A stretch of DNA of 64,000 nucleotides from Haladaptatus paucihalophilus DX253. Its GTDB lineage: Archaea > Halobacteriota > Halobacteria > Halobacteriales > Haladaptataceae. Shown here in pieces: positions 28,111-31,160 of this stretch (the first letter of the stretch is position 1; the number at the start of each line of letters is the position of its first letter). The stretch is from the NCBI RefSeq assembly GCF_000376445.1, contig NZ_AQXI01000001.1, positions 1,458,962 to 1,522,961 of the forward strand, read 5' to 3'. The position numbers were made by a program, and so were the translations under genes. The notes beneath the pieces were generated by a model, which was not told the DNA's origin, did no database searches, and saw only the letters and a program-made list of their open reading frames with translations.

Positions 28111-28908
28111 TCAGCGCAGGCGGTAGTTGTCCTGCTGCTGGGAGCGGTACCAGAACCCAGCGCCGCCGATGACGACGAGGCCGATGACCGCGACGCCGCC
28201 GTACATCAGCAGTTTGTTCTGCTGTTCGGATTGCTTGGCCTTGTCCGCGGCCGAGTTGGCGCTCTTCTTCGACTTGTCGGCGAGGTCGATGGCGTTGTCG
28301 AAGTTCTGCGCCTCGTAGGCCGAGATGGCGTTGTCGAGGGTGCTTTCGGCGTCCTTCGTGTTCGCACCCGAGGGAGCGTCGTCGATGGCACCCTGTGCGC
28401 CGACGATGGCCTCACGGGCGCTCTTGCTGTCCTCGGTGTGGTAGTTCGCCGTCCACGTCTCGATTTCCTCGCTGTTGCCGCCCTTCCGGGTCTGGCTCAG
28501 CGTGGCGAACGTGAACTCCTGCTGCGGGTCGAACGTGAAGTTCTCGACCTCGGGAACGGTGCCGGACACCTTCACGACCGCCTTGCTCGCGTCGGTGTCG
28601 AGGGCGAGGGAGTGATTGAACGACCGGCCGTCGTAGGACTCCTTCGCCTTCTGGTTGCCCGCTTGGTCGAACGTCGTGACGGTCCACGTCACGTCGGTCA
28701 GTTCGGTCTCCCCGTTCAGGGTCCACTGCTCGTAGTCACTGTAGAGGTCGGTGAGCGTCAGCTTCGCCGTCACCGAATCGCCGACCGCCGCGTCGTTCGG
28801 GACGCCGCTCTGCTCCGTCGAAATCGCCGTGGCGGGTGCGACCGCCGAGAGGGCGAGCGTGACGACGAGGAGCAGGGCGAACAGCTTAGAACAACGGGTC
28901 GAGTTCAT
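28111..28908 (-). CDS. Type I membrane protein coupled to cetZ, function unknown
   Basis: A protein of about 265 residues. It has an N-terminal signal peptide (LFALLLVVTLALSAVAPATA), an extracytoplasmic region with probable beta strands (residues ~30-140), an Ala/Asp/Lys-rich helical stretch likely to be coiled-coil (about 150-225), one membrane helix (KLLMYGGVAVIGLVVIGGAGF) and a short cytoplasmic tail ending YRSQQQDNYRLR. Its start lies inside the last codons of cetZ (overlap of 23 bases), which implies translational coupling. In-frame ATGs three and two codons earlier are equally possible. It may be a membrane partner of CetZ; this is an inference from overlap and topology. Confidence 0.8.
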   Translation of the reverse strand: MNSTRCSKLFALLLVVTLALSAVAPATAISTEQSGVPNDAAVGDSVTAKLTLTDLYSDYEQWTLNGETELTDVTWTVTTFDQAGNQKAKESYDGRSFNHSLALDTDASKAVVKVSGTVPEVENFTFDPQQEFTFATLSQTRKGGNSEEIETWTANYHTEDSKSAREAIVGAQGAIDDAPSGANTKDAESTLDNAISAYEAQNFDNAIDLADKSKKSANSAADKAKQSEQQNKLLMYGGVAVIGLVVIGGAGFWYRSQQQDNYRLR

Positions 28909-30061
28909 CCTCATCATCCTCGACGAGATTTTCGAGGTTCGTTTGGCTTTCCTGTTGGATGTCGTCGATGTTGTCCTGCGCCTCGATGGCGACCTGCTGG
29001 AGTTCCTTGATGCGTGGCACGTTCGTCACGCCCGAAAGCAGGACGACGCTGGCCACGCTGGGTTCGTTGACGGGGTAGTCGCCGCCGCGAACTTCCATGC
29101 TGCCGGTCTGCTCTTCGAGCCACTTCCGGCCGCGCTCGATACCTTTCCGATTGAGGTGGTGCGACGGCCCGCTCATGACGAGCAGAGCGCGCTCCGTTCC
29201 CTGAATCTCACACGGAAGCGTGAGACGACCGAGCGCCGCCTTTCGGACGAGGCTCGTGATGCGGTTCGTCGTGTGTGCGGTGTCCTCGGCCCGTCCGCCG
29301 CCACCGCCGGTGAAGCGCGAGAGAAGGCCGCCGGAGTTCTGCATCTCCACTTCTTCCGCGGCGTAGCCGATGGTAGAAACGCCGCCGCCCGCGAGCGTGT
29401 TGATGATTTCGCTGGAGTCGACGACGCTTTCCGCGACGTCATCGCCGCCGCCGACTTCACCGGCACCGAAGAGGATGCCGAAACGGGTGACGATTTCTTC
29501 GTTAATCTCCTCGTAGCCGCTCTCCATGCTCTCGCCGGATTGGCGCCACGCGTCGTTGTCGAACACCATCAGGTTGTCCACTTCGCGGACGAACGTCTGG
29601 AACGAACGCGCCGCGTTCAGCGTGTAGATTCCCCCCTCGTCGCCGCCGGGCAAGATACCCAGCCCGTAGACAGGTTCGGTGTAGATGCGTTTCAGGTGTT
29701 TCGCCACGACTGGTGCACCACCGCTTCCAGAACCGCCGCCCATTCCGGCGATGATGAGGAAGGCGTCCACTTCGTGAACGGGGATGTTGTCGATAGCGCC
29801 CTGTACTTCGTCGATATCCTCTTCGGCGATTTCCGCGCCGAGTTCGTTGTCCGCACCCACGCCGTGTCCTTTGACGCGGGACTGTCCGATAAGCACCCGA
29901 TTGTCCTCCGGGACGTGCTGCAGGCCCATGAGGTCAGCACGGGCGGTGTTGACGGCGACAGCCGCACGGACGATGCCGCTCTGTGTTCGCTGGTCGTACT
30001 CCAGGAACTTGTCAACGATTTTCCCGCCTGCCTGACCAAATCCGATCATCGCGAGTTTCAT
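28886..30061 (-). CDS. cetZ: CetZ, tubulin/FtsZ-superfamily cytoskeletal GTPase
   Basis: A 391-residue CetZ-type protein. It opens MKLAMIGFGQAGGKIVDKFL, has the conserved VLIGQSRVKGHGVGADNELG, the nucleotide-binding G-box GGGSGSGG at about 108-115, and the GILPGGDEGGIYTLNAARS motif. The known family controls rod shape and motility in haloarchaea through GTP-dependent polymers and does not divide cells like FtsZ. The C-terminal tail ends in acidic DELDPLF-like sequence that may bind partners. A TATA-like CATAAAC (plus strand, 30108-30114) suggests a 23-base leader. The gene overlaps the start of a type I membrane protein. Confidence 0.95.
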   Translation of the reverse strand: MKLAMIGFGQAGGKIVDKFLEYDQRTQSGIVRAAVAVNTARADLMGLQHVPEDNRVLIGQSRVKGHGVGADNELGAEIAEEDIDEVQGAIDNIPVHEVDAFLIIAGMGGGSGSGGAPVVAKHLKRIYTEPVYGLGILPGGDEGGIYTLNAARSFQTFVREVDNLMVFDNDAWRQSGESMESGYEEINEEIVTRFGILFGAGEVGGGDDVAESVVDSSEIINTLAGGGVSTIGYAAEEVEMQNSGGLLSRFTGGGGGRAEDTAHTTNRITSLVRKAALGRLTLPCEIQGTERALLVMSGPSHHLNRKGIERGRKWLEEQTGSMEVRGGDYPVNEPSVASVVLLSGVTNVPRIKELQQVAIEAQDNIDDIQQESQTNLENLVEDDEDELDPLF

Positions 30062-30263
30062 TTTTCGGTACCGTTCTCCGTTGAGAGAAGAACAGAAGGA
30101 AAGAGGACATAAACTTTGTGGTATGTTCTGTTTCAAACTGCAGACATTCACAACACAAAAACGCAATACGGCATCGGATTTTGGTGCAGTTTCCTTTCCG
30201 ACCTAATTTGTATCATATGCCCCCTCTTTAAGTCTGCATATATCCAGAATGGTCTCGTTTGTG

Positions 30264-31160
30264 TTATGTCGGATCGACGGACTCAATCCCGAGATATTCC
30301 TCCAGCGTAGTCAATTCTTCGGATTTAATGTCGAAGTTCCGAACATCGTTGTCCGACGTCGTATTGTCGAACTTCAGTGATCGATACTGATCCGCACCCA
30401 TCGGGAATCCCGGAATCGCGCCGCCGACTTTCAGCCCGACGCCCGCGAGTTCCATCGGGATGGGGAGCACGGTAACCGATTGCCCCTCGGCCCGTCGAGC
30501 GAGTTTCGCAACTTCCGCCAGGGTCAACACTTCCGGGCCGCCGATTTCGTAGATCTTCCCGTCGTGGGATTCGTCCAGTCCGTCGGCCAGTATCGGCGCG
30601 AGGTCGTCCACCCAGATGGGCTGAAACCGCGTTTTTCCCCCGCCGGGAAGCGGCGCGAGGTACGGCGGCGTGAGTTTCTTCGTGAACGAGAGGAACTCGC
30701 TTCCCTCGCCGAAGACGACCGACGGACGGAATATCGTCCACCGGAGGTCGGACCCCTTCACGAGTTCCTCGGCCCGTCCCTTGGCTCGAATGTACTCGGT
30801 CGGCCCCGTCGGGTCCGCACCCAGCGCGCTCATCTGGACGATTTTTCCGACGCCGTGTTCCTCCGCGGCCCGGACGACGTTTCGAGTTCCACCGAGGTGG
30901 ACGCGCACGTGGTTGAGCCCGCGCGGCGGTTCGAACAGCGGCGAGAGCGAGACGAGATTGATGACCGCATCCTGTCCGGCAAACGCTCCCTCGATGGACG
31001 CGTAGGCCGTCACGTCACCCATGGCTCGCTCGACGTCCGCCGGAAACGCCGCCTCGTCGGGACTCCGAGCGAGCGCGGTCACCTCGTGTCCCCGGTCGTG
31101 GAGTTCGCGGACGAGGTGTCGGCCGATGAAACCGGTGCCGCCGGTCACGAGAATCTTCAT
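30264..31160 (-). CDS. NAD-dependent epimerase/complex I NDUFA9-like SDR
   Basis: A 298-residue atypical SDR. The nucleotide-binding loop GGTGFIGRHL at residues 7-16 and the IFRPSVVFGEG motif near 160 define the group related to NDUFA9 and NAD-dependent nucleotide-sugar epimerases. No canonical YxxxK pair is clear. The start MKILVTGG is standard. It is divergent from the thymidylate kinase gene (110 bases). The substrate is unknown. Between its stop and the cetZ start is an AT-rich 202-base region with the cetZ promoter but no gene. Confidence 0.88.
   Translation of the reverse strand: MKILVTGGTGFIGRHLVRELHDRGHEVTALARSPDEAAFPADVERAMGDVTAYASIEGAFAGQDAVINLVSLSPLFEPPRGLNHVRVHLGGTRNVVRAAEEHGVGKIVQMSALGADPTGPTEYIRAKGRAEELVKGSDLRWTIFRPSVVFGEGSEFLSFTKKLTPPYLAPLPGGGKTRFQPIWVDDLAPILADGLDESHDGKIYEIGGPEVLTLAEVAKLARRAEGQSVTVLPIPMELAGVGLKVGGAIPGFPMGADQYRSLKFDNTTSDNDVRNFDIKSEELTTLEEYLGIESVDPT

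Follow-up and report, generated by a model that had tools for sequence, protein, structure and literature searches.

We found strong support for the view that the gene overlapping the end of cetZ in Haladaptatus paucihalophilus DX253 encodes a CetZ-dedicated single-pass membrane protein that is functionally linked to CetZ. Since the pair is kept together across a whole archaeal phylum, this protein, here called the partner, probably links the CetZ cytoskeleton to the cell surface. A gene that follows CetZ through the phylum offers a single, directly testable membrane-attachment candidate in the genetic model Haloferax volcanii, and the candidate bears on the question of how CetZ filaments are held at the membrane and bring about rod shape and motility.

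The cetZ locus and the overlapping gene

The window, i.e. the whole stretch of 64,000 nucleotides that was analysed, contains the following features at this locus:

28886..30061, minus strand: cetZ, a CetZ1-type tubulin-like GTPase of 391 aa with the C-terminus DDEDELDPLF (Pfam)
28111..28908, minus strand: CetZ-linked type I membrane protein (the partner), 265 aa, stop included in the coordinates
28886..28908, minus strand: overlap of 23 nt, from the partner ATG (28908) to the cetZ stop (28886) (sequence)
30062..30263, minus strand: intergenic region 5' of cetZ, in which the TATA-like sequence AAGTTTATG is a candidate promoter for both genes (sequence)
30264..31160, minus strand: nolA-like NAD-dependent epimerase, conserved upstream neighbour of cetZ1 (neighbourhood as in PMC9856176)
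27407..28012, minus strand: cofC-like gene (F420 biosynthesis), directly after cetZ1 where the partner is absent

The cetZ product matched the Pfam families CetZ_C (E 2.2e-81) and Tubulin (E 4.3e-32), and its gene is one of four tubulin-family genes found in its own genome. It shared 82% identity with the CetZ encoded at this locus in Haloferax and was assigned to the CetZ1 subfamily by its GTPase and C-terminal domains, with nolA upstream and cof genes nearby. The tubulin signature of the window CetZ1 was GGGSGSGG; the CetZ consensus built in the analysis was GGGTGSGG.

An earlier note on this DNA had placed the start codons of the membrane protein in the stop region of cetZ, and this was confirmed, with ATGs at 28908, 28914 and 28917. 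Read from MNSTRCSK the partner has 265 aa, and the in-frame ATGs at 28914 and 28917 would give 267 or 268 aa. The ATG at 28908 falls within the two cetZ codons that encode D-E in ...DELDPLF. There is no intergenic space ahead of the partner gene, and the TATA-like element stands upstream of cetZ.

Topology and fold of the partner

The window protein is predicted to have the topology of the family defined here, consisting of a signal peptide, a beta-rich outer part, a helical part, a C-terminal membrane helix and a short tail:

28825..28908, minus strand: signal peptide, residues 1-28, AxA (A-T-A) before the cleavage point (sequence, hydropathy, low-confidence N-terminal helix in the model)
28438..28821, minus strand: extracellular beta-sandwich, residues 30-157 (AlphaFold2, mostly pLDDT >85)
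28219..28434, minus strand: helical bundle of helices 159-177, 185-199 and the first half of 203-260 (AlphaFold2 model)
28156..28212, minus strand: single transmembrane helix, about residues 233-251 (hydropathy, alignment, model)
28114..28155, minus strand: short basic cytoplasmic tail of about 13 residues, ending in YRLR (sequence, alignment)

The AlphaFold2 model, obtained with 30 natural homologues, was confident (pLDDT 87.6, pTM 0.71), and in it residues 203-260 formed one long helix that passes through the membrane. Of the topology previously described for this protein, the signal peptide, beta-rich outer part, single helix and short tail held, but the supposed coiled-coil is better seen as a bundle of three helices, the last of which runs on across the membrane.

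No Pfam or NCBIfam family matched the partner above cut-off, and a PDB sequence search returned matches at chance level only. Assignments as ETRAMP, DUF4398, EssA or TPR were rejected, because the matches in the Pfam, NCBIfam and PDB sequence searches were sub-threshold and inconsistent. Foldseek with the partner model returned generic Ig-like sandwiches only. We also considered the partner as an archaeosortase (PGF-CTERM) substrate, but neither the window protein nor the other sequences inspected had a PGF motif ahead of the hydrophobic C-terminal helix.

From this layout we propose that the signal peptide would export the partner, which would fold outside as a beta-sandwich atop a helical bundle, and that the single long continuous helix would cross the membrane. 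The short basic tail, ending in [W/Y]D[E/K/R]L[G/K/R], would then most likely dock on CetZ polymers, either directly or by a small adaptor. Once docked, it would hold the polymers at the membrane and connect them with the contacts of the outer domain, whatever these are. We infer the docking, the tethering and a possible sensor role of the outer domain.

Instead of anchoring CetZ, the partner might sense the outer surface (S-layer, ions, surfaces) and regulate CetZ assembly through its tail. The large, fast-evolving outer domain with a conserved core would suit such a role (the partner was 62-90% identical where CetZ was 93-97% identical), as would the long helix that runs straight into the cytoplasm in the model. 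The partner has no known signalling domain, however, and its tail comprises just about 13 residues. We consider this explanation improbable.

Pairing of the two genes within and outside Halobacteria

The partner-family profile matched 206 of 391 Halobacteria genomes, or 201 after removal of five weak, partial matches. These five (G234, G282, G362, G373 and G384) were partial or unlinked and were left out of the counts as orthologues, as was the weak match L329. CetZ1-type genes were found in 364 Halobacteria genomes at E 1e-150, and in 366 when two just below this threshold are included. Among the 137 cetZ1 regions examined the partner lay directly downstream in 111 and was absent in 26, two of the latter having a damaged or incomplete cetZ. 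Every examined Halobacteria genome with both genes (111/111) had the partner adjoining cetZ1 downstream; where the partner was absent, cofC followed cetZ1 directly in the cases inspected.

The partner gene overlapped cetZ in 110 of the 111 Halobacteria pairs, its ATG falling in the stretch of cetZ that encodes ...D-E-L-[DE]-P-L-F. An ATG at -23, -29 or -32 in the cetZ end was present in 106/111 regions with the partner vs 1/24 without it. Likewise, the Asp codon in the overlap was GAT in 78 and GAC in 29 cases with the partner (n=107), and GAT in 1 and GAC in 21 cases without it (n=22; p 1.5e-9). From the ATG and the GAT bias we concluded that the overlapping start is maintained by selection. 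Translational coupling does not follow from this, because in H. volcanii termination-reinitiation coupling needs very short overlaps and long overlaps are typically uncoupled (PMC10666635). The overlap was accordingly rejected as proof of coupling, and the earlier claim that it implies coupled synthesis was not supported as stated.

All 12 Haloferax records contained the partner, which was also found in Halogeometricum, Halobellus, Halobaculum, Haloplanus, Haloarcula, Halapricum, Halorientalis, Haloarchaeobius and Halomicrococcus. Among the named genomes found through CetZ, no Halorubrum and no Natronorubrum record had it. In Haloferax volcanii cofC is HVO_2202 and cetZ1 is HVO_2204, so from the numbering and from synteny in relatives the partner should be HVO_2203, a tag that none of the papers found in our literature search mentioned. 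In Halobacteria we also inspected 20 copies of other CetZ paralogues, and none had such a gene downstream; within this class the partner is specific to one CetZ lineage. A solo second copy was seen in G123 on another contig, not beside cetZ (L209:1477-2289, minus strand), with the tail RRRRRLPSEHR.

The haloarchaeal profile also matched other classes of the phylum, and 15 of the 16 places inspected directly follow a cetZ. In a first set, 45 genomes had 47 CetZ copies, of which 35 were immediately followed by a protein of the same topology, the spacing outside Halobacteria ranging from overlaps of up to 47 nt to gaps of up to 29 nt. That the haloarchaeal form and the short and long forms are homologous was supported by profile-profile comparison (E 3e-18, 2e-14 and 5e-26). 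ORF, start codon and topology are kept across a phylum, and the partner ORF is not a product of chance.

With a non-haloarchaeal profile the family was found in 44/45 CetZ-bearing vs 5/35 CetZ-less genomes of the first set. A second set of 80 genomes was independent, as it contributed no sequence to that profile, and gave 56/57 CetZ-bearing vs 0/23 CetZ-less genomes, with 45 partner genes linked to cetZ and 11 unlinked. Taken together a homologue was present in 100/102 CetZ-bearing vs 5/58 CetZ-less genomes; the p-values of the Fisher tests ignore relatedness among the genomes. In one of the five CetZ-less genomes with a homologue the partner lies at a contig end and cetZ may simply be missing. 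A place directly downstream of cetZ, or co-occurrence with CetZ, is one mark of the family as defined here, and the window partner has it. Conservation of the neighbour pair, which the earlier note had named as a check on its proposal, was borne out by a wide margin both by the adjacency in Halobacteria and by the counts outside.

An unrelated membrane gene could have become fixed beside cetZ1 by conserved gene order, and the order around cetZ1 in Halobacteria is indeed conserved. Across the phylum, however, the other flanking genes vary and the partner stays, it is retained though unlinked from cetZ in at least 19 genomes (8 in the first set, 11 in the second), and its co-occurrence with CetZ is near-perfect. 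Such hitch-hiking is largely refuted and, in our estimate, very unlikely.

Some of the non-haloarchaeal families we take to be Archaeoglobales and Methanomicrobiales, from where CetZ is known. In the part of Brown and Duggin 2023 available to us (PMC9856176) the same cetZ1 locus is described with nolA upstream and cof genes downstream, and few neighbourhood similarities are given for Archaeoglobales and Methanomicrobiales; unlike in that account, we found that the partner gene adjoins cetZ as a rule in those families of the phylum that are not haloarchaeal. The available parts of this survey (arCOGs) and of a second context survey (PMC9871819, Pfam domains) do not discuss the partner. Nor do the available parts of the CetZ1 localisation and shape papers, which include few subscription papers or bioRxiv preprints so that earlier notice is possible, name a membrane partner of CetZ. 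As far as these sources go, the protein is probably an unrecognised partner of CetZ.

Further gene arrangements were observed. PRC-barrel proteins take part in haloarchaeal division, and outside Halobacteria a PRC-barrel protein with an FPWNF motif was encoded just upstream of cetZ at three loci (L315:5540-6406, minus strand; L316:299-1132, plus strand; L317:846-1595, plus strand), forming a cluster of PRC-barrel protein, CetZ and membrane protein. On two contigs (L305, G034:C14; and G490:C28) two cetZ genes were in tandem or close to each other.

Tail motif, gene losses and proposed function

Outside Halobacteria the tails read WDELG, WDELK, WDRLG, WERL and similar, with WDEL[GK] in most families, and in Halobacteria YDKLG and YDKLR dominate, the final Leu being kept in 148/149. 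With 2.7 bits per column vs 2.2 for the outer domain, the tail ranks with the most conserved regions of the partner. The eight unlinked copies with tails examined in CetZ-bearing genomes all keep [WF]DEL[KR], and the motif was lost in copies without or away from CetZ, namely in three f6 species, the solo paralogue and four f24 genomes. Two observations argue against docking by this motif: family f22 has KRGIY in its place, and the tails in the window's own genus are off consensus (NYRLR/TNRLR). The window tail is WYRSQQQDNYRLR; compared with [WY]D[EKR]L[GKR], its NYRLR keeps the Leu and the basic residues, the aromatic residue is shifted and the acidic residue is lost. At two loci (L380 and L381, in G497 and G485) two unlinked partner genes followed the gene of a large surface protein in tandem, and only the first copy kept the WDEL tail.

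On the CetZ tree the partner was ancestral, with 12 parsimony changes vs about 59 in shuffles. Within Halobacteria it was lost about 8 times with CetZ1 kept, which speaks against tethering. As CetZ1 persists without the partner in many haloarchaea, Halorubrum among them, the partner is not universally required by CetZ1, which can work without it in some lineages. We scanned CetZ1 for residues altered in lineages that had lost the partner, and this gave no convincing interface candidate; G88 changes in three clades.

The opposite loss was also found. In the three f6 species, all of one genus (L201, L202 and L203, in G289, G283 and G243), cetZ1 is lost and an intact partner with a diverged tail lies between nolA and cofC. 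Joint decay was seen in two genomes. G345 has lost cetZ1 and retains a remnant of the partner. In G002, of the window's own genus (L074, G002:C1:2365028-2368200), the cetZ1 pseudogene carries two stops as well as a deletion, which seems to join it to the last codons of a lost partner. These natural knock-outs, few and partly related, point in the same direction.

Adjacency and co-occurrence indicate functional linkage and not contact, and the two proteins might share a pathway without ever meeting, the partner being an envelope or surface protein that is produced under the conditions in which CetZ is, for instance in a motile rod programme. Its retention in the three species without CetZ1 would agree with this, as would the conservation of cofC and nolA, genes of other pathways, near cetZ1 (PMC9856176). 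Conservation of the C-terminus across the phylum and its loss in CetZ-less copies would be unexpected for a purely extracellular function, and we give this explanation a low probability, marginally below that of a surface sensor.

Unlinked retention and upkeep of the cytoplasmic C-terminus point to a membrane partner of CetZ, as far as the earlier proposal of a membrane anchor or surface sensor goes; to call it the anchor of CetZ is too strong, since many haloarchaea have CetZ1 without it. On balance we favour, with some reserve, an ancient CetZ-dedicated type I membrane protein whose tail would dock on CetZ polymers, fasten the cytoskeleton to the membrane and connect it with the surface layer. 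The more specific idea, a dedicated transmembrane linker, ancestral in the phylum and older than the haloarchaea, that uses a C-terminal docking motif of five residues to join a tubulin-like cytoskeleton with the extracellular surface layer, is speculative and we would sooner expect it to fail than to hold. If true, the linker would be comparable in logic to eukaryotic links from surface receptors to the cytoskeleton.

Like ZipA, the bacterial membrane anchor of FtsZ, the partner would cross the membrane once, be dedicated to a filament of the tubulin family and, as proposed here, contact it in the cytoplasm. In ZipA the membrane helix is N-terminal and a large FtsZ-binding domain lies in the cytoplasm, whereas the bulk of the partner lies outside with a short tail inside, and no sequence relation was found. 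SepF and FtsA are peripheral cytoplasmic proteins; the partner resembles them in its proposed job of attaching tubulin-family polymers to the membrane, and differs in fold and topology. Pfam and NCBIfam searches gave no match of the partner to the ZipA, FtsA or SepF families. In H. volcanii SepF is the FtsZ anchor (PMC7617429). Translocon-associated (TRAP-like) proteins, and other single-pass proteins that carry an Ig-like domain outside, possibly share the layout of an outer beta-sandwich and one membrane helix. At Foldseek rank 3 the partner model matched 9n9j chain 5, which may be a TRAP subunit, as a generic fold match with a TM-score under 0.5.
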